A stretch of 64,000 nt of DNA from Nitrospira defluvii (GTDB lineage: Bacteria > Nitrospirota > Nitrospiria > Nitrospirales > Nitrospiraceae), in NCBI GenBank assembly GCA_000196815.1, contig FP929003.1:2193501-2257500 (forward strand), in the 5' to 3' direction. Both the position numbers and the translations under genes were made by a program. Position 1 is the stretch's first letter. Every line of letters begins with the position of its first letter. Under the pieces are notes generated by a model. The model saw only the letters and a list, made by a program, of their open reading frames with translations. It was not told where the DNA came from and searched no databases. Positions 26,170 through 60,682 of this stretch are shown here, one piece after another.

Positions 26170-26188
26170 TTTTGAGGTGAGGTCGAAC

Positions 26189-27166
26189 GTGGACAGGAAC
26201 GAAAAAGAACCGACGCAGCAAACAAGACTGTCCCGCTCGGCCGGTGATGCCCGTGCGCGGGGTGGCGCAAGCCACCCGCGCAGGGGAGCCGCGCCAGCGG
26301 CCTCTCCTAAACTTGACAGGAGGACATTTCTCGGCGAACACACATGGCCTCACATCACACTACCTCCCGCAGGAAACATCTGGTCCGTTACGATTCATGA
26401 TTTCGGAAAACAATGGGTCGAAATGTCTTGGGGGAGATTAGACTCGATTCAGGGCAAGAGGGGAGAGAAAGGCGCATCGCGGAATAGAAAGATGAACGAG
26501 GTGCGGGCACGAGGCAGGGCCAAAGGCACAATTCGCAAGAAATGCCTGACCATCGGAGCCGACCATCTCGTGACCTTGACCTATCGAACGAATGTGGAGG
26601 ATCGAGAGCGCGTATTACACGATCTAGGACGGTTACGACGTGCGCTCTCACGTTCCGGCTGTTCTATGCCCTATGTGGCGGTCCTGGAACGTCAACAGCG
26701 TGGGGCCCTGCATCCCCATCTCGCAGTGAAAGGGTTTCAGGATGTTCGGCTCCTACGACGATGCTGGTACAAGATCGTCGGGAACGGGCAGGGACAAGTC
26801 AATGTCAGAGGGCCTCGCCCCGGCAGTTCTCCTGTGAAGCTTGCTCGCTATCTCTCAAAGTACATCAGCAAGGATTTCGACAATATGCCACGTGAGTTTG
26901 AAGAACACCGGTACTTTTGCTCTTTAGGCGTGAAGGTGCCTACTGAAAAGCATGAGTTTGTGCTGGACCGAAGCGCAAAAGACGTTGAAAGGAAGATGTA
27001 TACCCTCATGCGGCAAGAGGCGTTGCGTCGAGTTGGCGTCCGCTGCTGTCTTGCGGAGTGGATGGGTGGGTCGGGCACCTATGGATGGATGGCGGGTTTT
27101 GAGGATGCCTCGATACGATGGGGCAACGGAAGCTCTCAACCGGTGCCGATTACTTCAAGCTCGTGA
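26189..27166 (+). CDS. HUH-type replication-associated protein (Rep)
   Basis: This protein of about 325 residues has the rolling-circle initiator layout: LVTLTYRTN (motif 1-like), LERQQRGALHPHLAV (the HUH metal motif as HPH) and KLARYLSKYISKDFD (YxxKYxxK-type catalytic Tyr region). A basic Arg-rich N-terminal extension of about 70 residues precedes the core. It resembles the ORF2/G2P-type Rep family of filamentous and other ssDNA phage-related elements. It nicks at an origin to drive element replication; no origin hairpin was identified. The start is a GTG at 26189 (26177 is an alternative); an SD-like GAGG precedes it. The C-terminal third has a homologous but broken second copy at 28586-28903. 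Confidence 0.75.
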   Translation: MDRNEKEPTQQTRLSRSAGDARARGGASHPRRGAAPAASPKLDRRTFLGEHTWPHITLPPAGNIWSVTIHDFGKQWVEMSWGRLDSIQGKRGEKGASRNRKMNEVRARGRAKGTIRKKCLTIGADHLVTLTYRTNVEDRERVLHDLGRLRRALSRSGCSMPYVAVLERQQRGALHPHLAVKGFQDVRLLRRCWYKIVGNGQGQVNVRGPRPGSSPVKLARYLSKYISKDFDNMPREFEEHRYFCSLGVKVPTEKHEFVLDRSAKDVERKMYTLMRQEALRRVGVRCCLAEWMGGSGTYGWMAGFEDASIRWGNGSSQPVPITSSS

Positions 27167-27251
27167 CACTGCGCCGGCGCCTGCTGAAGCGCGGGCGCAC
27201 TTAGCTGGGGGGAGGGGGGTGTCGGAGACTACCCCCGGAGCGGTCCGTCGC

Positions 27252-28028
27252 CTACTTGGTCTCTTCCGCCACGGTGGTTGATGGGAAGTCAGGGCCAGAC
27301 TCCCGACCAAAGAACTGTCTCCACAGATAGTCGGCGCAGGCATCTGCCAAAGTCTGTATTCCCGCTTTCACGGCTACACCGTAGTCATCTCCAAGAATGT
27401 CGGCATGAGTCAACTTTGGAGTCAAGGAATCGTCCTTCGTATATTCGCAGATCCCTTGCCAAAGAGTTTTTTGATCGTCAAGTCGGATCAATCGAGCCCG
27501 TCCAGTGTAGGATGGGCGATAGGTAATCGTTTCAAAGGAAAATCCACCTACAATGATCGGATCGACGCTCCATCGTTCCGTTTTGAAGTCGATCACGTAA
27601 CCTTCGCCAAATTGCTGACGAAGCTTCTGCGAGCTATCATTTTTCACGAGATTCGATGTCCCCACTGCCGTGAGTTTTAGCTCTCGTTGCCATGCAGCTA
27701 CGAATCGATTTTCTACTTGCGTGATGGGGTCGAGAAGTTGAGTTGACGAGATGAATTTCGCTCCGACCTCCTTGGCGTCCGTCTGCTGCATCCCACCCTC
27801 GATAGCAGCACCGATCAATCCAAACATGCTTAAAGCAGTCGTGCGTGTTTTCGGTTCTCCCGTCCAAATCATAAACTGTTCAGGATCATAATGAGCAACT
27901 GCCACCTTGGCATTCGCTCTTAGATCAGCAATGGCTTCAGATGGTGCAGGCAGCCGAGTCGTGCTACAGCCTGCTAAGCACACAAGAATCAGGGCGCCTA
28001 GTATCGGGGTGAGTCGCAATCGGAACAT
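27252..28028 (-). CDS. Lipoprotein, function unknown
   Basis: This 258-residue lipoprotein has signal and lipobox LAGC near residue 21. The mature part is mixed alpha/beta without recognised motifs; it includes FGLIGAAIEGGMQQ and RARLIRLDDQKTLWQG. Coding is on the strand opposite to rep. It forms a pair with the smaller lipoprotein at 28059-28430. No role in element biology can be deduced; such lipoproteins can be exclusion or surface proteins, which is speculation. Confidence 0.7.
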   Translation of the reverse strand: MFRLRLTPILGALILVCLAGCSTTRLPAPSEAIADLRANAKVAVAHYDPEQFMIWTGEPKTRTTALSMFGLIGAAIEGGMQQTDAKEVGAKFISSTQLLDPITQVENRFVAAWQRELKLTAVGTSNLVKNDSSQKLRQQFGEGYVIDFKTERWSVDPIIVGGFSFETITYRPSYTGRARLIRLDDQKTLWQGICEYTKDDSLTPKLTHADILGDDYGVAVKAGIQTLADACADYLWRQFFGRESGPDFPSTTVAEETK

Positions 28029-28058
28029 CGTGCATGGCCTTTCGAAAAGCTGTTCTGG

Positions 28059-28430
28059 TTACTTGTATTTCACGGCGATACCGCTAACCGATGTGCAGGT
28101 GAAACTATAGACATTGTAGATAGGAATAAAGCCATACAAGCTGGTCGAGACAGTTACGTTGATCAATGCATCACCACCTTTTTGACTAAGTGCTTCGTCC
28201 ACAGCTTTTGAAAAACTGGAATCACCGAATGGAATGATGGCAAGGATGAAGTGCCGACAGCCAGATCCTTCCACCGGCCCAAGTTCTTCAAAACTCACAC
28301 CCGATTTAAGCCTGTCGGCATTATTGGCCGAAGGTTTCGTGACAATGCCTAAGTTTCCGACCGACGTACAGCCGGTCATCAATGCAGCGCCAAGAACAAG
28401 AAGTGCGCACAATCTGGACGAACGTTTCAT
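28059..28430 (-). CDS. Small lipoprotein, TRL-like
   Basis: This 123-residue lipoprotein has signal peptide and lipobox MTGC. The mature part ends in a stretch (SQKGGDALINVTVSTSLYGF, VYSFTCTSVSGIAV) like TRL-type/DUF6567-type small lipoproteins, in which short hydrophobic strands follow an ADALINV motif. The start at 28430 is fixed by an SD (CGGAGGCC) 5 bases upstream; a longer frame to 28481 lacks a signal at its N-terminus. Function unknown. It lies just upstream of the other lipoprotein and is co-oriented with it. Confidence 0.72.
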   Translation of the reverse strand: MKRSSRLCALLVLGAALMTGCTSVGNLGIVTKPSANNADRLKSGVSFEELGPVEGSGCRHFILAIIPFGDSSFSKAVDEALSQKGGDALINVTVSTSLYGFIPIYNVYSFTCTSVSGIAVKYK

Positions 28431-28585
28431 AAGGCCTCCGTTGAAAATCAATGTGAGCTGCAATATACGAGGTGAATGCATGCCCCGCCATTATGCTTAG
28501 AGGTGGAATGTCACCCTGCTTTGGGGGATGGTAGTGGTACTTAACGATAAGGGGAGAAGGAGAGGAGTAATGGGTCAAACCGACT
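28431..28585. other. Short intergenic region
   Basis: Between the small lipoprotein and the broken rep copy there is only an SD and leader region on the minus strand. No gene or clear repeat was found. Confidence 0.4.
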
Positions 28586-28903
28586 GGTATGTCTTAATAT
28601 CTGACTAAGGATTTCGATAACATGCCGCGTGAGTTCGAGGAGCACCGATACTTTTGTTCCTTAGGCGTCAAGGTGCCTACGGAAAAGCATGATTTGGTGC
28701 TGGACCGAAGGGCAAAGGACGTGGAAAGAAAAATGTACAGCCTCATTCGGCAAGAAGCCTTGCGTCGCGTCGGCGTCTGCTGCCGTCTTATGGAATAGAT
28801 GGGTGGATCGAGAACATACGGCTGGATGGCCGGGTTTGAGGACCTCTCGGCGGCCTGGCATAGCGGAACACCTGAAGTGGTATCGATAAGTCCAAGTTCG
28901 TGA
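28586..28903 (+). pseudogene. Broken 3' copy of a second rep gene
   Basis: The plus strand encodes a stretch that matches the last 100 residues of the Rep at 26189-27166: KDFDNMPREFEEHRYFCSLG near the start and MAGFEDLSAAW toward the end. It is interrupted by an in-frame TAG at 28796-28798, and a TAA lies where the Rep has Lys-Tyr, near 28594. There is no start codon or 5' part. Most differences to the intact copy are at third codon positions, so this copy evolved under selection before it decayed. It is probably a leftover of another related element. Confidence 0.8.
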
Positions 28904-29031
28904 AGGATCTGTTCGAAGTTACCGAAGCCCCGCCGTGCGTTGGGAGTGATGGAGGCTGGCGAAGAGTCCACCTCAAAATCAGAATTTGATCTGTCCAGAC
29001 GGACAGAGCGAAGGAATCGCCAATTTATGAT
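28904..29031. other. Intergenic region after rep remnant
   Basis: This region holds the 3' margin of the rep remnant and the end of the convergent cargo gene. No separate feature is visible. Confidence 0.4.
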
Positions 29032-30036
29032 CTAGGATTCTATGGTCCATTCACCAAGATTGGAAGGAACACCCGGCTCAGAATTCGGTTGAACACCGCG
29101 TGAAGTTAAGACATGGACCGGAAACGGCTGGAAAAGCTCCGAAGCGTGTTGAGCAGCGTCTTCCGCAGATGGGAAGCTGTCCAACACATTGTCTCCCTCG
29201 AACAACCAAAAGCGATTACCGATCTTTGCAATTCGAAGACGCTGAAACTTCCAGTAGTGGACCCAGTTTGGCCCTGCAAAAGTTGACTCCGGAGGCGGAA
29301 CACCATCGCAATTGAGACATGATGTATCTATGGGAGTTCCATGAAACGGTTTCAAAGCTTCGCGGAGGGATTGGCGGACTTTCCGACCTTGACGCTGAAG
29401 GGAAAATGGCCAACGGTTGAATTCAAGCCGCTGAAGATTTTTCTCTAGTGCGCTGGGAAGTGAATTTATTGCCTCGGGGTTCTTAAAAAGAACGGGTTCG
29501 GCGTGACGTACGAGTCCTGTAAGGATCTCTGGTCCAATGAGTATGGGCACCACGATGGCCGCAGAAATGCTCCTGAATTGGGCAAAGGATTCGTAGATTG
29601 CGCGGTCACGTGACACTTCCCCAGGTCCATGAAAGGGGGAAAGCGACGATACTCGATCTGTTCCAATGCAAAATACTACCGGGTCCGTGGTATTTGTCCG
29701 TCTGGCTTGGTCATTCTTTTCTAGAAGCTTCCGAAATAATCGATGCTGATTGAGTTCTGTGAGGGGCTTTGAAGATTGTTCAAATGCGAGCGTAGCATCG
29801 ATCCATAGTCGATTCCCAGCAGAAGTCTCAACAAGGAAGTCCGGACGGGCACTACCTGGTGTTGGTGGCTCGTATGAGATTCGACCGATTCGATTCGCCG
29901 CATCAGCCACAAGAAGTTCCCAAACAACACAAAGCCAGTCATCTTGCTTCAGTCTATGCCGCAATTTTGGAAGGATGCAGCCTGTTCCTTTTTCACATCG
30001 TGCCAGCAGATGAAGTATTTGTGTGTCCGTAAGCAT
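29032..30036 (-). CDS. Element cargo protein, weak nuclease-like pattern
   Basis: This protein of about 334 residues is not recognised. Its N-terminal part holds a pattern like a PD-(D/E)xK core: ARPDFLVE, then RLWIDATLAFE, in which the usual ExK is DAT, so the catalytic Lys is missing. The rest is mixed alpha/beta with a C-terminal beta-rich stretch ending in GEWTIES. Base composition is AT-richer than the flanking chromosome, as expected for cargo. The start is uncertain: ATG at 30036, or TTG at 30075 with a possible SD nearby. Cargo genes at this place in integrative elements are often defence genes; that is a guess from location. Confidence 0.55.
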   Translation of the reverse strand: MLTDTQILHLLARCEKGTGCILPKLRHRLKQDDWLCVVWELLVADAANRIGRISYEPPTPGSARPDFLVETSAGNRLWIDATLAFEQSSKPLTELNQHRLFRKLLEKNDQARRTNTTDPVVFCIGTDRVSSLSPFHGPGEVSRDRAIYESFAQFRSISAAIVVPILIGPEILTGLVRHAEPVLFKNPEAINSLPSALEKNLQRLEFNRWPFSLQRQGRKVRQSLREALKPFHGTPIDTSCLNCDGVPPPESTFAGPNWVHYWKFQRLRIAKIGNRFWLFEGDNVLDSFPSAEDAAQHASELFQPFPVHVLTSRGVQPNSEPGVPSNLGEWTIES

Positions 30037-30202
30037 TTCAATGACAATTTCGCATTCCTTCCTCTCGCGATTCAAGATTCTGTATCGGTACGATGGAGAA
30101 TCTGAATCTTATATCGTGAAGTACTCCTGCATCGTTCCTATCAGTTGACGTTGACAAATATATAGCGAGCCGATATATAAAGCGTATAACGGAGGGCTAT
30201 AA

Positions 30203-30493
30203 ATGAGTCCGAAGCCAAAAAACACACCGCATCGAGTCCTGTTGTCGCTGCCCACTGACCTCTATGAGACGATTTCGCGTGTATCCGCTGCTATGGAAAA
30301 ACCTCGAGCCGAAATCATCCGCGATCTGCTAAGCGAACAACAGCCGATTCTCGAACACATGGCCACGATGTTGGAGCAGGCAAAAACAGGAAAATTGGAT
30401 CAGGCCATGAAGGGATGGAAGAAAATGACCGGGGAGGCATTAAAGGGCCTTGGAGTAATCATGAATCCGCCTGATCTTAAGAAATCCAAATAA
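30203..30493 (+). CDS. Ribbon-helix-helix-like protein of the integrative element
   Basis: This 96-residue protein has a CopG/Arc-like N-terminal half: HRVLLSLPTDLYETISRVS followed by KPRAEIIRDLL, which suits a beta strand and two helices of an RHH DNA-binding fold. The C-terminal part is helical and basic and may mediate oligomerisation. It could be a regulator of the element. The start at 30203 has a good SD (GGAGGG) before the ATG. It lies upstream of the excisionase-like and integrase genes in the same direction. Confidence 0.7.
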   Translation: MSPKPKNTPHRVLLSLPTDLYETISRVSAAMEKPRAEIIRDLLSEQQPILEHMATMLEQAKTGKLDQAMKGWKKMTGEALKGLGVIMNPPDLKKSK

Positions 30494-30560
30494 AATATTA
30501 GCGACGTGATCGGGCGTCAGTGTGTAAAAAACCAGATCTAAACGGAAGGGGGTGATGCAA

Positions 30561-30839
30561 ATGTCAGAGGAAGTATTCAAGCGGCTGTATTCGGTCAGAG
30601 AGGCGGCTCGATACCTTGGTATCAGCCAGTGGGCGGTTCGGCATCTCAATTGGTCCAGCAAACTGCCCTGTGTGCGGCAGGGACGACGGGTCCTATTCGA
30701 TATTTACGATATGGACCGGTTTATCGAAAACAATAAGCGGGAGGGGCACCATGGGGATGATTTATCGACGCAAGAAACGCGATCCGACGACAGGGACTTT
30801 GGCCGAACAGGGCCCATACTGGATGAAGTATTACGTTGA
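30561..30839 (+). CDS. Excisionase-like HTH protein
   Basis: This 92-residue protein has a MerR/excisionase-type winged helix (LYSVREAARYLGISQWAVRHL then VRQGRRVLFDIYDMDRFI). Such proteins act as recombination directionality factors or regulators beside integrases. The ATG at 30561 is preceded by GGAAGGGGG. Its 3' end overlaps the integrase start by 89 bases, which links the two translationally. Confidence 0.78.
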   Translation: MSEEVFKRLYSVREAARYLGISQWAVRHLNWSSKLPCVRQGRRVLFDIYDMDRFIENNKREGHHGDDLSTQETRSDDRDFGRTGPILDEVLR

Positions 30840-32007
30840 CGGCAGACCTATCCAAGAAAGCACGAGGACCAGTGATAAGGAGCGAGCCAAACGGATTCTT
30901 AAAATTAAGGAAGGGGAGATCGCTGCAGGGCTATATCGTGGGCCCAATATCGACAGAACACGCTATGAGGACCTGGCTGAGCTCGTGAGACAAGATTACG
31001 AATTAAACAAGCGTAAGACTGGACGTCGGGTCAATGAATATCAGCACCATTTAGAACCATACTTCCGAAAGATGCGGGTGTCCACCATCACCACTGAGCG
31101 AATCAAAGCCTATATTGTGAAACGCCAAGGAGAGGGCGCGGCAAACGCCACCATCAACCGGGAAACTGGATTTCTGAAGCGCATGTTTCGGATGGGCTTT
31201 CAACAAACACCACAACTGGTCGCTCGTGTTCCTCATATTCCTCAACTCAAGGAATACAACATTCGATCAGGATTCTTTGAGCATGAGGATTTTCTCGCCC
31301 TTCGAGGCGCGTTACCTGACTATGCCCAGGTCGCTGCAACGCTCGCATACTACAGCGGGATGCGAATGGGCGAGGTCTGCTCGCTGCAATGGCGGCAAAT
31401 CAATTGGACGGAGGGGAAGCTGTTTCTACAGGCACAGGACACGAAGACCAATACCCCCAGGGTTCTCTACCTGACGGGAGATCTTTACCGGGTTCTATTG
31501 GCTTGGAAGACTCGCTGCGACCTCAAGTGGCCAGGTTGTCCCTGGATCTGCCATCGTGGAGGAATCCGCCTACAGAGTTTGAAGCATTCCTGGCGGAAGG
31601 CGTGCGAGACGGTCGGTCTCGGCGGGATGGTGAAAGATGAAAAGAAAAAGCACTTAGTGTGGGTAGGTAGAATCCCACATGACTTCCGTCGTACTGCTGT
31701 CCGCAACATGGTGCGGGCCGGAGTGCCGGAGAAGGTGGCCATGTCCATTTCGGGCCACAAGACCAGAAGCGTGTTTGACCGGTACAACATTGTGAACGAA
31801 CGGGACCTCGAACAGGCGGCGCGTTCACTCTCTGCGTACTTTGAGCGTCAGACGGTTACACTTACGGTTACACTCGCAGAATTGCGAGGGGAGAATAGTG
31901 GCTCTGTAAGCCGCCAACCGGTTGATTCGTCAGTGGAATTTGTGGAGCTGGCGAGAGGAATCGAACCCCCAACCGGCGGTTTACAAAACCGCTGCTCTGC
32001 CAATTGA
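30751..32007 (+). CDS. Tyrosine-type site-specific integrase
   Basis: This 418-residue integrase has an N-terminal arm/SAM-like domain and a catalytic domain with the tetrad Arg205 (GMRMGE), His310/Arg313 (PHDFRRT), His336 (SGHKT) and Tyr345 (FDRYNIV). The last 27 residues, from Asp392 (DSSVEFVELARGIEPPTGGL onward), come from the att core and antisense tRNA-Thr, so the final sequence depends on the integrated state. The ATG at 30751 has SD GGGAGGGG; the longer open frame from 30616 overlaps the excisionase-like gene. Confidence 0.92.
   Translation: MGMIYRRKKRDPTTGTLAEQGPYWMKYYVDGRPIQESTRTSDKERAKRILKIKEGEIAAGLYRGPNIDRTRYEDLAELVRQDYELNKRKTGRRVNEYQHHLEPYFRKMRVSTITTERIKAYIVKRQGEGAANATINRETGFLKRMFRMGFQQTPQLVARVPHIPQLKEYNIRSGFFEHEDFLALRGALPDYAQVAATLAYYSGMRMGEVCSLQWRQINWTEGKLFLQAQDTKTNTPRVLYLTGDLYRVLLAWKTRCDLKWPGCPWICHRGGIRLQSLKHSWRKACETVGLGGMVKDEKKKHLVWVGRIPHDFRRTAVRNMVRAGVPEKVAMSISGHKTRSVFDRYNIVNERDLEQAARSLSAYFERQTVTLTVTLAELRGENSGSVSRQPVDSSVEFVELARGIEPPTGGLQNRCSAN
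31854..31875 (+). repeat. Paired 10-bp repeats near right att, candidate arm sites
   Basis: GGTTACACTT at 31854-31863 and GGTTACACTC at 31866-31875 repeat the left-end pair with the same 12-base period. They lie 49 bases inside the right att repeat, within the integrase coding region. Confidence 0.55.
31924..31987 (+). repeat. Right attachment repeat at tRNA-Thr 3' half
   Basis: This 64-base direct repeat matches 25951-26014 in 63 positions and includes the tRNA-Thr 3' half plus 19 bases beyond the CCA end. It ends at the anticodon loop, as is typical of tyrosine integrases that use tRNA genes. Confidence 0.85.
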
Positions 32008-32018: not shown

Positions 32019-32326
32019 CCGAGAGATCAGCTATCTGATTTACTATCAAGAGAATGTGAAAGGAAGATTGCGAACCCTACAATTCTTCTTCTCACCTGTC
32101 AAGATCTAGGCCGGGTGCTATTAAAGAGAAAAGCTTTCTTTGTGCAGACTCTGATGGCTCACCTATGCAGGCCATCCTTACTTTCACTTGAATAAAGTTT
32201 CAATTCCCAATAAGCTGATTCTGTGTTCAATTCTTCGACGAGAGAGGTGTTTCTCATGGTACCTTCTGGTCATCCTTATAGATCCGAACCTGATTTCTTT
32301 GGTCCCCTCAGAGAGGAGTGCTCTTG
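32019..32326. other. Intergenic region before the flagellar regulator
   Basis: About 310 bases with no credible gene. It should hold the tRNA-Thr promoter on the minus strand and the promoter of the regulator at 32327. No clear sigma-54 site was found. Confidence 0.4.
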
Positions 32327-33742
32327 ATGAGCCAGTCACATATTCTCGTGATTGATGATGATCCTGCCGTGCGTCAAATCTTGGCGGAGACGCTCACCGG
32401 TGAAGGCCATCAGGTGACGGTCATGTCCAGCGGGCTGGAGGGAGTGGAGGCCGTCAAGGATCAGCCGGTGCACGTGGTACTGACGGATCTCCAGATGCCG
32501 GGAATCGATGGGTTGGAAACCATTGATCGAATCTCGAAAATCGACTCCAAGATAATTGCGATTGTCATGACGGGTTATGGGACGGTCGACTACGCCGTGC
32601 GGGCGATGAAAGCCGGCGCGTTTGATTTTATTACTAAGCCCTTTGAGCCCGATACCGTGGCGGTAGTGGTCCGAAAGGCCTTGGACGTCTACAAGTTGAA
32701 GCAGGAAAACCACCTGCTTCGAAAAGCCGTGCGAGATCAATATCGCCTGGAGCATCTGGTGGGGACGAGTGCACCGATGCGCATGGTACTTGATTTTGTC
32801 GAAAAGGTGGCGGATAGCGACAGTACGGTGCTGATTGAAGGCGAGAGCGGGACCGGCAAGGAATTGATCGCACGCATGTTGCACTTTAACAGCATGCGGA
32901 GGGAACGTCCGCTGGTTCCGGTGAACTGCGGGGCCATTCCGGAAACCCTCTTAGAATCCGAACTCTTCGGGCATGAGAAGGGGGCCTTTACCGGAGCGGC
33001 CCATACGCGCCTCGGGCGATTTGAGTTGGCTCATGGCGGAACCATCTTTTTGGACGAGGTCGGGGAGATGAGTTTGCCGTTGCAGGTCAAACTGCTGCGG
33101 GTGTTACAAGAGCGATGCTTCGAGCGCGTGGGCGGGACACGGACGATCAATGTCGATGTCCGCATCATCGCGGCGACGAATCAGGATTTGGCGCAAGCTG
33201 TTCAGGAGCGCCGGTTCCGACAAGACTTGTATTACCGGCTGCACGTGATTCCCATTCACATTCCGCCATTGCGGGAGCGCCGTAGCGATATTCCGCTTCT
33301 GGTAAACCATTTCATCGCCCAGTTTAATCAATTACGGCGGACGGAGATTCTCGGTATGGAGCCTGATGCGTTAGCGCGCATGATGGAAGAAGAATGGCCT
33401 GGGAATATCCGGGAACTTGAAAACATGATCGAACGCCTCTGTGTGTTGAAGAAACGAGGCATGATCACGATGGGCGATTTGCCTGAACGGCCGGTCAAAA
33501 TGAATGCCGGTAAGGGAGTCGAATCGCCTGAGCAGTTCATTCGCTTCTCGGAAGACGGGATTAATTTGACCAAAGAACTTGAGCATTATGAAAATAGGCT
33601 TATTGGGGAAGCGCTGCGAAAGGCCAATGGAATTACTAGCCGAGCCGCGCAGTTACTTCAAGTGAATCGCACTACACTGGTGGAAAAACTCAAACGGAAA
33701 GGATTTGATCCCAAGACTCACGGGTACTCGATTCAAAACTAG
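32327..33742 (+). CDS. Sigma-54-dependent response regulator
   Basis: This 471-residue NtrC-family activator has a receiver (VIDDD, VLTDLQMPG, TKPFE), an AAA+ domain with Walker A GESGTGKE, an intact GAFTGA loop (KGAFTGAAH) and Walker B TIFLDEVGEM, and a Fis-type HTH (GITSRAAQLLQVNRTTLVEKL). A GAGGAG SD is 8 bases before the ATG at 32327. It precedes the TPR-kinase-activator operon and the flagellar genes, so it is a candidate upstream regulator (FlrA/FleQ-like position), but no direct link is seen. It is not co-directionally linked to a kinase of its own. Confidence 0.85.
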   Translation: MSQSHILVIDDDPAVRQILAETLTGEGHQVTVMSSGLEGVEAVKDQPVHVVLTDLQMPGIDGLETIDRISKIDSKIIAIVMTGYGTVDYAVRAMKAGAFDFITKPFEPDTVAVVVRKALDVYKLKQENHLLRKAVRDQYRLEHLVGTSAPMRMVLDFVEKVADSDSTVLIEGESGTGKELIARMLHFNSMRRERPLVPVNCGAIPETLLESELFGHEKGAFTGAAHTRLGRFELAHGGTIFLDEVGEMSLPLQVKLLRVLQERCFERVGGTRTINVDVRIIAATNQDLAQAVQERRFRQDLYYRLHVIPIHIPPLRERRSDIPLLVNHFIAQFNQLRRTEILGMEPDALARMMEEEWPGNIRELENMIERLCVLKKRGMITMGDLPERPVKMNAGKGVESPEQFIRFSEDGINLTKELEHYENRLIGEALRKANGITSRAAQLLQVNRTTLVEKLKRKGFDPKTHGYSIQN

Positions 33743-33873: not shown

Positions 33874-36096
33874 TTGAATGATTTCCGAAGGGGCACAGGA
33901 CTTGCTGATTTGCCCCCTGTGCAATACCGATCTTCGTCACAACAACCCGTCAGGATCCGGATAGGCCTGGCATTTTTTCTGGGAAGCCTGTTCCTCGCCG
34001 GAGGTTCTTCTGCCATGGCTGCCGGTGGACCCTCGACGATGCGACAAGAACTGCCAGCCATGATGCCTGAGCCGTCGGAATTGGTGCGAGGCGCACTTCC
34101 GGATCCAGGGCCTCGCTTGGAACGGGTTCCCGAGAGTCCTGAATGGGGTGAATTTGAACGGGGAGTGACTCTCTACACGCAGGGGCAGTATCCCGAAGCG
34201 CGGCTTCACTTGACCAACATGTTGCGAGACCATCGCGATCTTCCGCTGCGGTCGTCGATTCAAGCCTTCCTCACAGAAAGCTCCTTAAAGAGTAGCGCAC
34301 AAGAACTGAGGCCGCTGGAAATCATCGATCTATACAAGGCGCTGATGCGAGAGGATCCCCAGTCGACAAATGCCAGGCGGGCCGCCTGGAGAATCGGCGA
34401 TGTGTATCGTGTCGAGGGTTGGTACCAGGAGGCGCAGATCGCCTACCAGCATGCGCTCAGTCTCTCCGAGCGAGATTCCTATGATGCCAATCGAGCCATG
34501 CTCGGTCTGGGCTATGTCTTGCGCGGCATCAAGAGTTGGAAGGACAGCGTACAGACGTTTGATCACGTTTTGAAGCGAAGCACCGACCCCGCGTTGCTGG
34601 TGTCCGCTTCCCTGGGGCAGGCCCACAGCCTCTATCGAATGGGGCGGATCAAGGACGCTGATGCGTTATATGAAAGCCTCAGCAGCCGCTGGCCTGCCGC
34701 ACTTCGGGCGGATCCATACGCATTGCTGCGTTATGCGGATACGGCGGGAGAAGCTCAGCGCGGCCCGGTCATGCGGGAACAACTCCTCCATTTCTACAAT
34801 CTGTATCCCTCCAGACCGGAGAATCCTTTTGTCTTGATGCACTTGGCCGACAGTTACAAAGAGGCCGGGCGATGGGAAGATGCGAGCATGTTCTATGCGG
34901 CGTTGATGAGCCAGTATCCGGATGCGCAGGTTGTTCCCACGGCCAGGCTCCGATATGCGGACGTGCAGGAGCATCTCACTCCGGAAGGCGAGGAGGTCAA
35001 TCTTCGACACACGATCGCCGCACATCTCGCAAACGTTCCCCTCAAACCCGGTGAAATGCTCAGCCCGCGCCAGTTGTTCGAAAGCAGCGCGAAGCAATAT
35101 GAGGACTCACCGGTTGGAAGCGAGGCGCTATTTCATCTCGGTCAGGCGTTGGAGCGAGCAGGCAAACAGGAAGATGCGCTGAAAGCTTACGAGCGGGGAG
35201 TCCAGCGGGCGGGGAAGTTTGAGAACGATCCCTGGCCGGAGAAAAGCGGGGCGCAACTCGTCAGATTTATGCGTCCCAGGCTGGAAGCGGCACTGAAAGC
35301 AGGCGACGATTTTGAGCTCATCAACCTGTTCCACCGTAACGGCCCGTTTGCCGATCGGCTATACGCCGGTACGGAGCTCTTGCTCAAGGTGGCCGAGGCG
35401 CATCGTCGGCTTGGATTTCCAATCGAGTCGGCGCGGCTCTTTCAGTCGTTGATTCGAAATTCCAAAGCCGAGACCTTTCACGAAGTCGCTTTAATGGGGC
35501 TCGGCGAGAGTTACCTGGAACAAAAAGACATGCGGGCGGCCCGTGCCGTCTTCGAGCGGTATCGCCTGCAATTTCCCGTCGGCCGGTTCGCTGGACAGGC
35601 TCTGCTTGGAATCCTGACGTCCTTCGAGGGGGAAGGAAACACGGCCGGCTTAGTGAAGCTTGGAAAGCAGTGGTTGATACACAACCCGCGCCATCCGAAC
35701 CGCGCATTGGTTCAGCTGAAGGTAGCCGATGCCTTGAGGCAAGCAAAACGGGACTCCGAGGCCGCTTCCCTGTACGAGAACGTGCTCAAGGCGGGGACGG
35801 ACCTGTCCGCATTGGACCGGCTCCGATATGCCGATGTTTTGGCCAGACTGAATCGTCAAGAGCCGGCACTGGCTCTGTATAAGCAGGCATTGGTGGCGGG
35901 ATTGGAGGCCGAGGAGGAAGCCTGGGCGCAATTGCAGATCGTGCAGTTGGCGCGGGGAGTGAAGCGTGACGAGTTCGCAAGGAACGGGCTTCGCGCACTG
36001 AATGAGAACAGCGACAGCCTCGTTCGGCGCATGGCTGCCGTATTGCAGACCGAGTTGCCTGAATCCACTCCCGCCGCAGGAGGCAAAAAGCGATGA
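33874..36096 (+). CDS. Exported TPR-repeat protein in flagellar regulator operon
   Basis: This protein of about 740 residues has an uncleaved-looking N-terminal leader of about 25 residues, a hydrophobic signal (RIGLAFFLGSLFLAGGSS) and then many tetratricopeptide-like helical pairs up to the C-terminus (for example WYQEAQIAYQHALSL and QEDALKAYERGV). The protein is probably periplasmic, with more than ten repeats. TPR arrays bind partner proteins; the gene overlaps the kinase start by 4 bases, so it may modulate the kinase. The start is uncertain: TTG at 33874, or a later TTG or GTG; none has a good SD. Confidence 0.75.
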   Translation: MNDFRRGTGLADLPPVQYRSSSQQPVRIRIGLAFFLGSLFLAGGSSAMAAGGPSTMRQELPAMMPEPSELVRGALPDPGPRLERVPESPEWGEFERGVTLYTQGQYPEARLHLTNMLRDHRDLPLRSSIQAFLTESSLKSSAQELRPLEIIDLYKALMREDPQSTNARRAAWRIGDVYRVEGWYQEAQIAYQHALSLSERDSYDANRAMLGLGYVLRGIKSWKDSVQTFDHVLKRSTDPALLVSASLGQAHSLYRMGRIKDADALYESLSSRWPAALRADPYALLRYADTAGEAQRGPVMREQLLHFYNLYPSRPENPFVLMHLADSYKEAGRWEDASMFYAALMSQYPDAQVVPTARLRYADVQEHLTPEGEEVNLRHTIAAHLANVPLKPGEMLSPRQLFESSAKQYEDSPVGSEALFHLGQALERAGKQEDALKAYERGVQRAGKFENDPWPEKSGAQLVRFMRPRLEAALKAGDDFELINLFHRNGPFADRLYAGTELLLKVAEAHRRLGFPIESARLFQSLIRNSKAETFHEVALMGLGESYLEQKDMRAARAVFERYRLQFPVGRFAGQALLGILTSFEGEGNTAGLVKLGKQWLIHNPRHPNRALVQLKVADALRQAKRDSEAASLYENVLKAGTDLSALDRLRYADVLARLNRQEPALALYKQALVAGLEAEEEAWAQLQIVQLARGVKRDEFARNGLRALNENSDSLVRRMAAVLQTELPESTPAAGGKKR

Positions 36097-37382
36097 CAAC
36101 GCGCGAGGTCGACACATCGAACAATGACCTGCTGACACGTGCATTCCACGACTTTGACCAGGCTGCCACCGTCCTTCAACAGTCGTATGACGCCTTGACG
36201 ACACGGCTGCAGCAGATGGATCTGGAACTCGCGCAAACCAATGCCAGTTTGCGCGAACATCTTCGCGAAACAGAAGAGATGCGTGCCCATGTGACGGCGG
36301 TACTGGAGTCGTTGGATACGGGTGTGATCGTAACAGACTCGCAGGATTCGGTCGTGCGGTGCAACCACGCCACGGAACGGCTGTTGGGAGTGTCGCAAGC
36401 CAGCCTCAAGGGACGTCGGGCGACGGAGGTTCTGGAGGAAATCAGGAAAGATCACGGCGAGTATCCGCTGGTTCTTCCGACGGGCGTCACCATTGCCCTC
36501 TCGCAGAGCGCCTTGACCGATGAAACCGGGACGTTGATCGGCAAACTGGTGTTGATCCATGACGTCACTCACATTCGCCAGCTTGAAGACCGTTTGCAGC
36601 GGCGCAACCGCCTGGAGGCCATGGGCCAGATGGTCGGGAACATCGCGCATGAAATCCGGAATCCACTGGGAAGCGTCGAGTTGTTCGCGTCGATGCTGCG
36701 CAAAGATCTCCGCGATCAGCCGCATCTGCGGACCTACGCGGAGCATATCTCGATGGCGGTGCAGGCCATGGACCGGTTGCTATCGAACCTCCTCGTCTAT
36801 ACCAGACCGGACTGTTCGAGGTTGGCATGGCTGGATACGGAATCGCTGATTCGGGAAGTACTCACGCTGGCGAGCCATGCCATGTCACCGGCGTCGATCG
36901 TGGTCCGTTGCGAGGTCGATCCCCGCGTGCCGAAGATATGGTGTGACGGCGGGAAAATGAAACAGGTACTCCTGAATCTTGTTTTGAACGCCGTCCAGGC
37001 CATGCCGGAAGGGGGCAGCCTGACATTGTCCGCTCGTATGGCTCCGGCAGGCATTTCAGAAGCACCTGCTATTCAACTCACGGTCAGTGACACCGGCACG
37101 GGGATTCCACTGGCGTTGCAGTCGCGGGTATTCGACCCGTTTTTTACCACGAAAGACCAAGGGACTGGACTGGGGCTTGCCATCGTACATGCGCTGGTCG
37201 AAGCTCATCACGGCCGCATCGATGTGGAGAGCAGACCGGGGCATGGGACTTCATTTGTCATGACATTCCCCCAGGGCTCCATGCAGCAAGCAACGATGCC
37301 GGCGCGAAATGCCGCATTGGTCGGACGGTCCGTGCAAATTAGTCCGATTGCGAATGTCACCGAAGAGGAGACCTACGAATGA
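36093..37382 (+). CDS. Cytoplasmic PAS histidine kinase, FlrB-like
   Basis: This 429-residue kinase has no transmembrane segment. An N-terminal coiled coil (residues 15-70), a PAS-like domain (VLESLDTGVIVTDSQ), a HisKA domain with H-box NIAHEIRNPLGS and a HATPase with NLVLNAVQAM, DTGTGI and GTGLGLAI are visible. The ATG overlaps the TPR gene by 4 bases and the stop overlaps the activator start by 4 bases. This is the FlrB/FleS position of polar flagellar systems, in which the kinase phosphorylates the FlrC/FleR activator. A REC-FliH fusion 5 kb downstream is another possible partner. Confidence 0.88.
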   Translation: MTTREVDTSNNDLLTRAFHDFDQAATVLQQSYDALTTRLQQMDLELAQTNASLREHLRETEEMRAHVTAVLESLDTGVIVTDSQDSVVRCNHATERLLGVSQASLKGRRATEVLEEIRKDHGEYPLVLPTGVTIALSQSALTDETGTLIGKLVLIHDVTHIRQLEDRLQRRNRLEAMGQMVGNIAHEIRNPLGSVELFASMLRKDLRDQPHLRTYAEHISMAVQAMDRLLSNLLVYTRPDCSRLAWLDTESLIREVLTLASHAMSPASIVVRCEVDPRVPKIWCDGGKMKQVLLNLVLNAVQAMPEGGSLTLSARMAPAGISEAPAIQLTVSDTGTGIPLALQSRVFDPFFTTKDQGTGLGLAIVHALVEAHHGRIDVESRPGHGTSFVMTFPQGSMQQATMPARNAALVGRSVQISPIANVTEEETYE

Positions 37383-38797
37383 GCGTGCAACAGGATTTAC
37401 AAGGCCCCTCCGCCACCTCCGAAGACACTCGGATGGTCCTGATCGTCGATGATGAACCCTCGATGAGAACGGCCCTGTCTGAAACGGTCCGCAGATTGGG
37501 CTACCAAGTCCGGGGGGCGATCGACGGCGTCGACGCCATTGAGCAGATTGAGCGAATCAAACCGTGGTTGGTGGTGACCGACTTGAAGATGCCGCGCCTG
37601 ACGGGGCTGGAACTCGTCAAGGCCATCAAACAAAAATCCCCCCAGACCTTCATTGTTCTGATGACCGCCTATGGCACGGTGGAGACAGCGGTGGAAGCGA
37701 TGAAATACGGCGCGAATGACTACCTGTTAAAGCCTTTCTCCACAGACCTGTTGGAACGAGTGATTCTCAACCTGCAGGCCACCACGGCTACGGACGAGCA
37801 GGAAGGGCCCGCTACACTGGAAGCTCGGGCGATCTTGACGCAGGATCCCGGCATGATCCGCCTGCTCACCACTCTGGAGGGTGTCGCGGCGAGTCAGGCA
37901 ACCGTGCTGATCAGCGGCGAGAGTGGAACCGGGAAGGAACTCATGGCCCGTTACATCCACGCGCGCAGTCCGCGCGCCCATCGCCCCTTCGTGGCGTTGA
38001 ATTGTGCCGCGCTACCGGACAGCCTCCTCGAGAGCGAACTGTTTGGTCACGAACGCGGCGCATTTACCGGAGCCATTCAGAAAAAATTGGGCAAGTTTGA
38101 AATGGCGCATACCGGGACGCTGTTTCTCGATGAAATCAGCGAAATGAATTTGGGCTTGCAGTCCAAACTTCTGCGCGTCTTGCAAGAGCGCGAAGTCGAT
38201 CGTATCGGTGGGCGCGAGCCCGTTCCAGTGAATATTCGCGTCATCGCCACCACCAACCGCTCGCTGTATCACGAAGTCACCCAAGGGAGATTCCGTGAGG
38301 ATCTTTTCTATCGGCTGAACGTGTTTCCCGTCACGGTGCCTCCCCTTCGTGATCGGTCGGGCGATATTCCGCTTCTGGCGAGACATTTCCTTCGTTCCTC
38401 GGCACAGCGGAACGGGCTCACCATGCCGACGTTGTCCGAGCGCGCGATCGCCGATCTCCAGCAGCGTCCCTGGAAAGGCAACGTGCGCGAACTCGAAAAC
38501 GTCATGGAACGTGCCATCCTGGTGGCCACCGGAGGAGCGGTGGATGTGGATCATCTGATGCCGGGCGATGGCACCGTGCCGGTACGTGAGGTAGGGGCGG
38601 TCGATACCCTCGTGACTGCCTCGGCACATGGATCGCTGTGGGAGATGGAGCGCGACCTTATTTTCAAGACCCTGGCGCGAGTGAAAGAAAACCGTACACA
38701 TGCGGCGAAGGAATTGGGGATCAGCATTAGAACGTTGCGGAACAAATTGCGGGAGTATCGCGACATGGGCTACCAGGTCGAGGCGGAGAAGTCCTGA
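37379..38797 (+). CDS. flrC: Sigma-54 flagellar response regulator, FlrC/FleR-like
   Basis: This 472-residue activator has a receiver (LIVDDEPSM, VVTDLKMP, LLKPF), an AAA+ domain with GESGTGKE, intact GAFTGA (RGAFTGAIQ), Walker B TLFLDEISEM, and a C-terminal Fis-type HTH (NRTHAAKELGISIRTLRNKL). It follows the FlrB-like kinase with a 4-base overlap and lies 170 bases upstream of flgB, whose sigma-54 promoter it probably activates. The symbol reflects position and architecture; FleR is the equivalent name in Pseudomonas. Downstream sigma-54 sites at fliL and flgF would also be targets. Confidence 0.85.
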   Translation: MSVQQDLQGPSATSEDTRMVLIVDDEPSMRTALSETVRRLGYQVRGAIDGVDAIEQIERIKPWLVVTDLKMPRLTGLELVKAIKQKSPQTFIVLMTAYGTVETAVEAMKYGANDYLLKPFSTDLLERVILNLQATTATDEQEGPATLEARAILTQDPGMIRLLTTLEGVAASQATVLISGESGTGKELMARYIHARSPRAHRPFVALNCAALPDSLLESELFGHERGAFTGAIQKKLGKFEMAHTGTLFLDEISEMNLGLQSKLLRVLQEREVDRIGGREPVPVNIRVIATTNRSLYHEVTQGRFREDLFYRLNVFPVTVPPLRDRSGDIPLLARHFLRSSAQRNGLTMPTLSERAIADLQQRPWKGNVRELENVMERAILVATGGAVDVDHLMPGDGTVPVREVGAVDTLVTASAHGSLWEMERDLIFKTLARVKENRTHAAKELGISIRTLRNKLREYRDMGYQVEAEKS

Positions 38798-41815: not shown

Positions 41816-42811
41816 ATGAATAAAGAACTGTCGGGTGCACAAAAAGCGGCGATCTTACTTCGAGCCATCGGTGAAGAAGCGGCCGCGGCGGTCATGAAGA
41901 CTCTCGACCCGAAGGATATTCGCAAGCTCGGGAGCTTCATGAAAGAAACCGCAAACATTACGAAGCAGGAAGAGGATAGCGTGATCGCCGAATTTGAACA
42001 GGCGAGCTCATCCGGCGAGGTGCAATTCGAGGGACGCGAATTCATGGAAGCCATTCTGAAGAAGGCGCTGGGCCCCGAGAAGGCCGCCAGAATGATGGAG
42101 TCCTTGAATACGAAGACCTATCCCGGTATCGACGCTCTGAAGTGGGTCGATCCCCGAACCGTCGCGCAAATTCTCAAGATCGAACATCCCCAGACGATTG
42201 CCGTCTGCCTGGGACAAATGGAAGCCGAACAGGCCAGTGCCGTGCTGGCGTTGTTACCGGTACACCTGCATGCCGACGTGTCGCTGCGGCTGGCGACGAT
42301 GCAGGAAGTGCAGCCGGAGGTGCTGTCCGAATTGAGCGATAGTCTGCAGGAAATTCTGTCGGCCTCGATGGGCATGTCGAGCATGTCGGTCGGCGGCGCC
42401 GAATTGATGGCCGATATTCTGACGCGTGTGGATAAGAACACCGAAGGCGCCATTATGGCCAAGATCACTGAGCGCGACCAGGCTCTGGCAGAAAGCATCC
42501 GGGCGCTGATGTTCGTCTTCGATGACCTGGTCGAACTGGATTCCCGCGGCATGCAGGAACTCATGAAGGAAATCAGTAAAGAAGACCTTCCGGTCGCCCT
42601 TCGTGGTGCCACCCCGGAGATCAAAGAGAAGTTTCTCAAGAACATGTCGAGTCGCGCGGCCGAAATGCTCAAGGAAGACATGGAAACGCGCGGGCCGGTC
42701 AAGGTATCCGATGTCGAAAAGGCGCAGCAGAACATTCTCAAAGTCTGTCGCAAGCTTGAGGAGGAAGGCCGCATCGTGATCGGAGGCGGGGGAGGCGAGG
42801 AGTTGCTGTAG
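41816..42811 (+). CDS. fliG: Flagellar motor switch protein FliG
   Basis: FliG is the rotor switch subunit that engages the stator. This 331-residue protein has the N-terminal MS-ring-binding domain, the middle EHPQT motif (KIEHPQTIAVCLGQME) and the C-terminal charged helix with LVELDSRGMQELMKEI used for torque. The start follows the fliF stop by 11 bases, and its stop abuts the REC-FliH gene, so translation of the two is likely coupled. Confidence 0.96.
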   Translation: MNKELSGAQKAAILLRAIGEEAAAAVMKTLDPKDIRKLGSFMKETANITKQEEDSVIAEFEQASSSGEVQFEGREFMEAILKKALGPEKAARMMESLNTKTYPGIDALKWVDPRTVAQILKIEHPQTIAVCLGQMEAEQASAVLALLPVHLHADVSLRLATMQEVQPEVLSELSDSLQEILSASMGMSSMSVGGAELMADILTRVDKNTEGAIMAKITERDQALAESIRALMFVFDDLVELDSRGMQELMKEISKEDLPVALRGATPEIKEKFLKNMSSRAAEMLKEDMETRGPVKVSDVEKAQQNILKVCRKLEEEGRIVIGGGGGEELL

Positions 42812-43861
42812 ATGGGTACTGTTGATTTGGGAAGTCGCCTGCCGCAGACGTCTCCCGCGGACAATGAAAAGGAACTCGCCCCACGGGCCATTCTTATCGT
42901 CGACGACGAGCCATCCATCGGCTTCCTCTTGACCGAAATGTTGCAGTCCACAGGGCACCCGATTCTCACGGCCGGGTCTGTCAGCGAGGCCCTGGCGCAT
43001 CTGAAATCCCGTCCGATTGCCGTGTTGATCGTCGATGTTCAATTGGCCGGAACAGATGGTATTGCTTTTTTGCAACAGGCCTTGGAGGTCGATAGCCGTC
43101 TGCTGAGTATCGTCATGACCGGGCACGGCAACATCGAACTGGCTGTGCGCGCCATGAAATCAGGCGCTGCAGACTTCTTAACCAAACCGTTCGAAGTCGA
43201 ATTGGTGAGACAATCCGTCTCGCGATTGCTGGAGCTCTATCGCCTCAGGCAGGAGAATACGGTGCTCACCCGCACCTTGATTCGTTCCGGCAACATACAG
43301 TTGCGGACGGTGCCGCTGGCCGATTTCAGCCGCGGGAACCGGCCCTTCGGAACGGATGACGTGACCGAATTCGAGCGGGGCGTGGCGGAGGGGGAAAAGC
43401 GCGTCACGGAGCGGGTCGCCGCGCTGCGCCAACGGGAACAGGCGCTGGTGGCTTCGCTGATGGCGCAATTGGAGGGAAGCTGGCGCAATCTGCACGACAC
43501 GGTGGAAGAAGAAGTGGCGTCACTGTCGTTCATGATCGCGCAGAAGGTCCTGCGCGAACTGGTGACGGAAAAACGCGAGGTGATCGTGACGCAGGTACGA
43601 ACGGCACTGGCGCATTTGCATGAAAGCGGGCTGGTCCGGATCCGGGTGCATCCGTCGGATCTGCCGCTGCTCGAAGCGTCGCGGGCGGCACTGAGTCAGA
43701 CTCCGCACGGGCTCTTGACACTAAAATTTGAGACGGATCCCGGTATCAGCCCGGGGGGCTGTCTCGTGCAGGCGCAGAGCCTCTTGATCGACGCCACGCT
43801 GGATACCCAATTGCTGAGGCTCGGTGAAGCCCTAAGAAAGCGGGACGCCGGTGAAGCTTAG
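42812..43861 (+). CDS. fliH: FliH fused to an N-terminal response-regulator receiver domain
   Basis: FliH inhibits and delivers the export ATPase FliI. This 349-residue protein carries an NtrC-like receiver at residues 26-140: acidic pair Asp31-Asp32, phosphoacceptor Asp75 (LIVDVQL), Thr103 and Lys125 (LTKPFE) are all present. A linker helix (LYRLRQENTVL) resembles the one in the NtrC-type activator encoded at 32327. Residues 185-345 are FliH: the Arg/Glu coiled coil EFERGVAEGEKRVTERV and the C-terminal ISPGGCLVQAQSLLIDATLD. The ATG directly follows the fliG stop; SD GGAGGCGAGGAG. The frame is continuous and single. Separate translation of FliH from an internal start cannot be excluded. Confidence 0.9.
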   Translation: MGTVDLGSRLPQTSPADNEKELAPRAILIVDDEPSIGFLLTEMLQSTGHPILTAGSVSEALAHLKSRPIAVLIVDVQLAGTDGIAFLQQALEVDSRLLSIVMTGHGNIELAVRAMKSGAADFLTKPFEVELVRQSVSRLLELYRLRQENTVLTRTLIRSGNIQLRTVPLADFSRGNRPFGTDDVTEFERGVAEGEKRVTERVAALRQREQALVASLMAQLEGSWRNLHDTVEEEVASLSFMIAQKVLRELVTEKREVIVTQVRTALAHLHESGLVRIRVHPSDLPLLEASRAALSQTPHGLLTLKFETDPGISPGGCLVQAQSLLIDATLDTQLLRLGEALRKRDAGEA

Positions 43862-45158
43862 CGAACGCCTCGAACAAGTCGAACCCTTATCCGTCACGGG
43901 CCGGGTGGCCCAAGCCGTCGGGATCGTCATTGAAGCCTCGGGGCCGTTCACCTCTGTCGGAGAGGTCTGCGAGATCACCCGTGAGGGCGGCCATGGCGCC
44001 GTCATGGCAGAAGTGGTCGGATTCCGCGAGGATCGTGTGCTGCTGATGCCGCTGGGTGAAATGCAGGGCATCGGCCCGGGCAGCCGTGTCGTGATGAAAG
44101 GGCACGTGGCGTCGGTGCCGGTCGGACCGCAGATGTTGGGACGAATTTTCGACGGACTCGGGCACCCGCTGGACGGCTTGCCGCCGCTACGCACCGATGT
44201 CCAGGTTCCGTTGTATGCGCCTCCGCTGAATCCGCTGCATCGCGCGAGAATTACCCAGCCGGTCGATCTGGGCATTCGGGCGATCAATGCCCTGTTGACC
44301 TGCGGCCAAGGCCAGAAAATCGGCGTGTTTGCCGGATCCGGGGTGGGAAAAAGCGTCTTGTTGGGCATGATCAGCCGGTATACGCAGGCGGATGTCCGGG
44401 TGATCGCCCTCGTCGGCGAGCGGGGACGTGAAGTCAAAGAGTTCCTGGAGCGCGACCTGACCCCGGAAGCAAGGGCCCGCTCCATTGTCGTCGTCGCGAC
44501 CTCGGATCAACCGCCGCTGGTGCGCATTCGCGGCGCCTTGGTGGCGACGGCCATCGCCGAATATTTTCGCGATTGCGGCAAACATGTATTGCTGATGATG
44601 GATTCCCTTTCCCGCCTGGCCTATAGCCAGAGAGAAGTCGGGCTTGCCATCGGTGAACCTCCCACCACCAAAGGGTATACACCGTCCGTTTTTGCCGTGT
44701 TGCCGAAATTGCTGGAGCGGGTCGGACCGGCACAGAGCGGGGGCAGCATTACCGGGCTCTACACCGTGCTGGTCGACGGCGACGACCTCAACGATCCGGT
44801 CGCGGATGCCGTGCGCTCCATTCTCGACGGACATATTGTGCTTTCACGTGAACTGGCTGCGCGCAATCACTTTCCGGCCATCGATATCCTGCAGAGTACC
44901 AGCCGGGTCATGCGGGACATTGTCACGCCGGCACACTATGCCGCGGGGCGGTTGGTCCTGGAACGCACGGCGCTCTATCGGCGCTCTGAAGATCTCATCA
45001 CGCTGGGCGCGTATAAGCCCGGCACGAGCAAGGATCTGGATAAAGCCGTCTCCGCTCATGAGGGCATTACGGCGTTCCTGCGGCAGGAGACGAAGCAGTC
45101 CGTCGGGTTGTCGCAGTCCATCGATGCTTTGCTGGCGCTGGCAGGAACCATTCAATGA
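43851..45158 (+). CDS. fliI: Flagellar export ATPase FliI
   Basis: FliI is the F1-beta-like ATPase of the flagellar type III export system. The 435-residue protein has Walker A AGSGVGKS near residue 163, Walker B LLMMDSLSRLAYSQRE and the family segment IGEPPTTKGYTPSVFA. The GTG start overlaps fliH by 11 bases, so FliH and FliI are translated together. The N-terminal beta-barrel domain is complete. It should form a hexamer controlled by FliH. Confidence 0.96.
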   Translation: MKLSERLEQVEPLSVTGRVAQAVGIVIEASGPFTSVGEVCEITREGGHGAVMAEVVGFREDRVLLMPLGEMQGIGPGSRVVMKGHVASVPVGPQMLGRIFDGLGHPLDGLPPLRTDVQVPLYAPPLNPLHRARITQPVDLGIRAINALLTCGQGQKIGVFAGSGVGKSVLLGMISRYTQADVRVIALVGERGREVKEFLERDLTPEARARSIVVVATSDQPPLVRIRGALVATAIAEYFRDCGKHVLLMMDSLSRLAYSQREVGLAIGEPPTTKGYTPSVFAVLPKLLERVGPAQSGGSITGLYTVLVDGDDLNDPVADAVRSILDGHIVLSRELAARNHFPAIDILQSTSRVMRDIVTPAHYAAGRLVLERTALYRRSEDLITLGAYKPGTSKDLDKAVSAHEGITAFLRQETKQSVGLSQSIDALLALAGTIQ

Positions 45159-45595
45159 ACGTGACCGTGCTCCGCACCTATGCGATCCAACTTGAAGAGG
45201 TCGCCAAGCTCGAGTTGGCGGAACTCGCGAGCGCGTTGCAGCAGACAGTCGACCGTATGACGATGTTGGATTCGCGGGCGAAGGCGGATGCCGACCGATA
45301 TTTGCTTCAGGTCAAACAGGGGAGCACCGTGGACCAGGTGTACGGTCACCTTGACGCGATGGATCAGGCCATCGCCGCACGGAAGAGCATGGAGCAGATA
45401 CAGAGGGATCAACAGGTCAATATGGAACACAAACGCGGAGAACTCCTGGAAGCCATGCAGTATCGGAAGAAGCTGGACCTCCTCGATGCGCGCGCTGCGC
45501 TGGAACGACGTCGACGACGAGAACGGCAGGATCAGCAACTGCTGGATGAACGAGCCTGGCGACGGAGTCCATTACAAAAGGGAGAACGGGCATGA
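45155..45595 (+). CDS. fliJ: Flagellar export chaperone/stalk protein FliJ
   Basis: FliJ is a small coiled-coil protein that acts as the gamma-like rotor of FliI and as a substrate escort. The 146-residue protein is nearly all helical and charged (VAKLELAELASALQQTVDRM, ERRRRRERQDQQ). It overlaps fliI by 4 bases and the next gene by 4. Sequence identity of FliJ is always low; position and coiled-coil content support the call. Confidence 0.88.
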   Translation: MNVTVLRTYAIQLEEVAKLELAELASALQQTVDRMTMLDSRAKADADRYLLQVKQGSTVDQVYGHLDAMDQAIAARKSMEQIQRDQQVNMEHKRGELLEAMQYRKKLDLLDARAALERRRRRERQDQQLLDERAWRRSPLQKGERA

Positions 45596-60523: not shown

Positions 60524-60682
60524 GATGACCACCCGGACGGTGTAGCGGTCGTTGCTGTTCGTTCGTATCGTCGGCCCCCGGGCGTTGTCGCGCGGGCCAC
60601 CATGCCTTTAGTTTCGCCTCCACTTTTCCGATACCTCCCTAGTCCAACATCCCGTTGGCTGCGCTGCTCCATCGGGGAGGGT

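Follow-up and report, generated by a model that had tools for sequence, protein, structure and literature searches.

The flagellar gene cluster of Nitrospira defluvii encodes a FliH protein that begins with a response-regulator receiver, which raises the question of whether this fusion is genuine, where the receiver came from and what it might do on the export machine. The window, that is, the whole stretch of 64,000 nucleotides that was analysed, supplies all positions used here (Table 1). The fusion gene, referred to as REC-FliH, is a single intact frame in which an NtrC-type receiver is followed by an exit helix and a complete FliH. It is the sole FliH of the genome and is encoded between fliG and fliI in the flagellar operon. 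Its ATG abuts the fliG stop (TGTAG followed directly by ATG), with GAGGAG upstream of the start, and its stop codon at 43859-43861 lies beyond the start of fliI, which therefore overlaps the 3' end of REC-FliH. Pfam identified Response_reg (PF00072) at residues 27-135 (E 5.7e-22, 78.4 bits against a cut-off of 30.2) and FliH (PF02108) at residues 211-336 (E 2.2e-20, 73.3 bits against a cut-off of 24.1). These two were the only Pfam matches above cut-off, and neither an AAA+ sigma54-interaction domain nor an HTH was among them. A sequence-only reading of this DNA had claimed a continuous frame with a receiver and a complete FliH between fliG and fliI, and coordinates, frame and Pfam agree with it; Asp31, Asp32, Asp75, Thr103 and Lys125 were all found at the positions it had given.

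Table 1. Features of the flagellar cluster and of the REC-FliH gene, with window coordinates.
Feature	Coordinates	Strand	Basis or remark
RR1, NtrC-type sigma54 activator	32318..33742	+	Pfam; closest relative of the FliH receiver
TPR protein between RR1 and kinase	33874..36096	+	Pfam; position common to most clusters examined
PAS histidine kinase, FlrB/FleS-like	36093..37382	+	Pfam; nearest candidate phospho-donor
RR2, NtrC-type activator beside kinase, FlrC-like	37379..38797	+	Pfam, cluster comparison
fliG	41816..42811	+	Pfam
REC-FliH fusion gene, 349 aa	42812..43861	+	Frame, Pfam; 75 distinct homologues
NtrC-type receiver, residues 26-135	42887..43216	+	Pfam, AF2 model, conservation
Phospho-acceptor Asp75 codon	43034-43036	+	Within receiver
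Receiver alpha5 continued as exit helix, residues 129-158	43196..43285	+	AF2 helix, entropy, heptad scan
Flexible linker with hydrophobic motif IxLxxVxLxxF, residues 162-172	43295..43327	+	Motif comparison
FliH stalk helix and C-terminal FliI-binding domain, residues 187-342	43370..43837	+	PF02108, profile matches 187-342
fliI, export ATPase	43851..45158	+	Pfam
fliJ	45155..45595	+	Pfam

A sequencing error that joined two genes, or a protein that is split at translation, would produce the same reading frame. We found nothing in favour of either and consider such an artefact extremely improbable. The fusion is present in 75 distinct homologues, several of them in single-contig genomes, and thus REC-FliH is not an assembly artefact. 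No internal start is kept at residues 130-229, where 56% of sequences have a start-like codon, and 15% ATG, in the best column. The earlier reading had itself listed a joining error and absence of the fusion from related genomes among the findings that would refute it, and the 75 homologues speak against both.

The distribution of the fusion was surveyed in 296 genomes of the phylum, 163 of which contain FliH. Loci were taken for most of the organism's own family, its sister family and its class, and the FliH proteins were extracted and aligned. Both domains were detected by Pfam in all 21 divergent fused members opened to this search, and FliH without a receiver in all 18 relatives classed as unfused. 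Within the family, which is taken to be Nitrospiraceae, all sampled genomes with FliH carry the fusion except those of genera g3 and g6 (three genomes). These unfused genomes (L137 and L164 in g3, L148 in g6) still keep RR1, the TPR protein, the kinase and RR2, and they are natural controls for receiver function. In a tree of FliG and FliI, g3 and g6 group inside the fused family and the fused or unfused label needs at most two changes, with one gain being sufficient; the tree does not reject the fused genomes as one clade (p-AU 0.26). A gain followed by later loss in g3 and g6 is not demanded, given that value. The fusion most likely arose a single time, at the root of this one family or close to it.

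The search was also extended to FliH-bearing genomes of six other phyla, centred on Desulfarculales (126 genomes), Burkholderiaceae (157), Acidobacteria (69), Bacillota (127), Planctomycetota (82) and Alkalispirochaeta (117). Among these approximately 680 genomes, no receiver was found on FliH in the 60 frames opened, which were mostly the longest; positive controls were recovered in this sample, and frames of approximately 300-345 aa were opened only in part. A scan of genome contigs with REC-FliH gave full-length matches only in Nitrospira-type records, one of which is titled as an uncultured Nitrosospira bin. When 398 genomes of one phylum were searched with a receiver-FliH profile, only NtrC-type receivers came up among the best five candidates per genome. 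Because only these five candidates were scored, the range was judged instead from surveys of the FliH family that included the length of each frame. Two loci that gave multi-piece matches, L066 and L111, were rejected as second receiver-FliH fusions since the pieces belong to adjacent separate regulators. One frame of L066 (5929-6957) is RR1-like and has an AAA+ domain that runs into the ATPase end of a histidine kinase, which is either an assembly join or a true hybrid. The search for N-terminal receivers on FliH that had been proposed with the sequence-only reading thus places the fusion in one family only, within the sample surveyed.

The origin of the receiver was traced within the same gene cluster. 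The best non-self match of REC-FliH in its own genome is RR1 (from 32333), with 109.6 bits over residues 24-157, and the next match has 72.8 bits. RR1 is also the nearest cluster regulator to the FliH receiver in every fused genome examined. In a receiver tree, twelve FliH receivers group together (95/84) inside a group with the RR1 receivers (95/92), on limited sampling and few columns. Because of this genome match, the cluster comparison and the tree grouping, the sequence data indicate that the receiver and its exit helix were copied from RR1, approximately 10 kb away. Capture from an NtrC-type gene at this place (32318, or 32327 as first read) had been suggested before, and the wide margin of the best match and the tree both bear it out.

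The order RR1, TPR, kinase, RR2, flgB, flgC, fliE, fliF, fliG, fliH and fliI is constant across the genomes examined; one clipped contig (L270) begins at the kinase. In the window, the TPR gene overlaps the kinase start by 4 bp. A gene for a GGDEF diguanylate cyclase (60602-61558) is located inside the flagellar cluster, after fliA. An integrated mobile element (26177-32007) lies just upstream of the cluster and includes a G2P/ORF2-type replication protein (26177-27166), a CopG-like protein (30203-30493) and a tyrosine recombinase (30616-32007) that ends approximately 300 bp before RR1.

The receiver has kept the residues of its phosphorylation site, and few columns of the fused proteins are more conserved than those of this site. 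Asp75 and Lys125 are present in 75 of 75 aligned fused sequences, position 103 is Thr in 74 and Ser in one, and position 31 is Asp in 74 and Glu in one. Asp32 is kept in 65 of the 75 and is replaced by Ala, His or Gly in the other ten, which come from at least two lineages. Canonical phosphorylation may therefore not hold in all fused proteins, and the receivers without Asp32, which retain Asp75 and Lys125, are possibly pseudo-receivers. They were found in genus g2 (L133, L134, L135, L138, L150, L158, L167, L174 and L176) and genus g5 (L146). Within the genus, the receiver had a median dN/dS of 0.059, the linker 0.043 and FliH 0.082. Mean column entropy was 1.28 in the receiver, 0.99 in the exit helix and 1.44 in FliH, and the exit helix value was the lowest of all segments. 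These measures indicate that the receiver is held under purifying selection with an intact phospho-acceptor site. A first AF2 model, built from close homologues alone, was of poor quality (pLDDT 55); a second, with receiver homologues added, improved the receiver half, and the FliH half was still of low confidence. In the second model the receiver has a pLDDT of approximately 90 and matches the NtrX receiver with Z 22.0 and an rmsd of 1.2 A over 117 residues. It also matches the receivers of HupR, NtrC1 and DctD, several of them through the exit helix.

Beyond the receiver, the AF2 model contains a continuous helix at residues 129-158, a disordered linker at 161-179 (pLDDT below 50) and then a long stalk helix. 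The exit helix is heptad-like in a heptad scan (L142, L145, N149, L152 and L156). FliH forms a coiled-coil dimer. Its extreme N-terminus binds FliN and FlhA, in Salmonella via Trp-7 and Trp-10, and the dimer brings FliI to both proteins (PMC9114704). At the N-terminus, the unfused FliH proteins of the phylum have a segment whose hydrophobic residues lie at positions 0, 3, 5 and 8, which is the spacing of W7, W10, P12 and L15 in E. coli. In the fused proteins this spacing is found in 64 of 75, mostly as L-V-L-F at 164, 167, 169 and 172. The spacing is retained and the docking-segment aromatic is eroded in most fused lineages; 72 of the 75 have no Trp between the receiver start and the FliH core. 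A docking-motif score matrix was significant in few lineages, with a median shuffle p of 0.21 across individual fused sequences. These comparisons are suggestive of a receiver module joined directly before a degenerate copy of the FliN/FlhA-docking motif of FliH.

REC-FliH resembles FliH of E. coli and Salmonella in its FliI-binding C-terminal domain, its helical stalk, its place between fliG and fliI and its docking-type hydrophobic segment of equal spacing. However, it has 158 residues of receiver and exit helix in front, the Trp/Tyr of the docking segment are mostly lost in the fused proteins, and the GxxxG repeat is not evident in a sequence read by eye. With the NtrX, DctD, NtrC1 and HupR receivers and RR1 it shares the fold, the acidic pocket, the Thr/Lys switch and the alpha5 exit helix. 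The NtrC-subfamily regulators act through an AAA+ sigma54-activator part and a DNA-binding domain, whereas the output of REC-FliH is FliH.

Phosphorylation gating of flagellar export is plausible from the conservation of the receiver, its fold and the position of the fusion. We put forward, tentatively and at somewhat less than an even chance, that phosphorylation of Asp75 in the RR1-derived receiver tunes the docking or activity of FliH2-FliI. A histidine kinase would phosphorylate Asp75 of REC-FliH. Within the FliH dimer, both receivers would then re-pair, as in NtrC-subfamily receivers, which alternate between 4-5 and 4-5-5 dimers (PMC13269768), and the packing of the exit helices would shift. 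As a result, the adjacent docking segment at the N-terminus, or the stalk, would offer FliH2-FliI to FliN and FlhA in a different way. The export ATPase would thereby be tuned post-translationally in its recruitment or its activity, on top of sigma54 transcriptional control by RR1 and RR2. LvrB, a histidine kinase controlled by a receiver, serves as a model for this mechanism only: re-pairing of its receivers switches the coiled coil after alpha5 and so controls a non-DNA output (PMC13269768). That output is its kinase core, and LvrB has no relation to flagella. Altered docking is preferred over altered FliI control as the effect of receiver re-pairing, because the linker between exit helix and stalk is flexible.

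The same linker bears on the reading in which docking is unaltered and phosphorylation shifts the register of the coiled-coil stalk, relieving or imposing inhibition of the FliI ATPase. Salmonella FliH without residues 60-100 gives higher FliI ATPase activity (PMC2674601), and the exit and stalk helices are both long in the AF2 model. However, the 19 flexible residues between these helices argue against a rigid lever, and we regard this route as unlikely. A role without phosphorylation is rather improbable in our judgement. The receiver would then dimerise FliH or replace its N-terminal anchor via FliM/FliN or another partner, which would fit the persistence of the fusion in two lineages without Asp32 and the loss of the aromatic from the ancestral docking motif in most fused lineages. 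The invariance of Asp75 and Lys125, with Thr or Ser at position 103 in every fused protein, speaks against such a scaffold.

The source of the phosphate bears on a further alternative. The sequence-only reading had named the kinase at 36093 as the nearest candidate donor, and no other histidine kinase is conserved in the cluster. The kinase-specificity patch of the FliH receiver, however, has diverged from both cluster regulators. Identity to RR1 is 29% in the patch against 43% elsewhere in the receiver, and identity to RR2, the adjacent partner of this kinase, is 20% against 33%. The kinase at 36093 is thus the nearest candidate, and a weak one. If it were nonetheless bound or drained by REC-FliH at the nascent export apparatus, assembly of the export gate could be reported to RR1 and RR2 while export itself is ungated. 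The descent of the FliH receiver from a paralogue in the same cluster and the constant gene order from RR1 to fliI would suit such a checkpoint, as would the finding that FlrB/FleS/FlgS kinases of other bacteria need the MS ring, rotor and export core to be active (PMC7064773). The diverged patch fits insulation rather than competition for one kinase, and a phosphate sink could do without a conserved helical link to FliH, whereas conservation within the fusion is highest in the exit helix. We give this checkpoint a low probability.

The kinase at 36093 and RR2 share the FlrB/FlrC layout beside flagellar genes with FlrBC, FleSR and FlgSR (PMC7064773). The known output of those systems is transcription, whereas REC-FliH places a third receiver on the export machine itself. 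No published FliH with a receiver was found in the searchable papers, with most subscription journals outside the search, in line with the earlier reading, which knew of none. The fusion may already be recorded, without remark, among the domain architectures of databases or in genome annotations. In the papers searched, no phospho-input to FliH-FliI docking was found, and docking itself is described as dynamic. In the searchable literature, neither FliH as the output of a response regulator nor a receiver as the input to FliH is described.

The fusion occurs in ecologically important nitrite oxidisers. It is a clear example of how duplication within a single gene cluster can give a response regulator a new, mechanical output. 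Control of flagellar export beyond transcription is an open question, for which a family-wide receiver gives a defined residue, Asp75. It is possible, if on the doubtful side, that one signalling system, through a receiver duplicated from RR1, reaches both gene expression and the export ATPase stator by phosphorylation across the whole family. If the proposed mechanism is true, flagellar export in these bacteria would be switched directly by phosphorylation, beyond gene expression alone.
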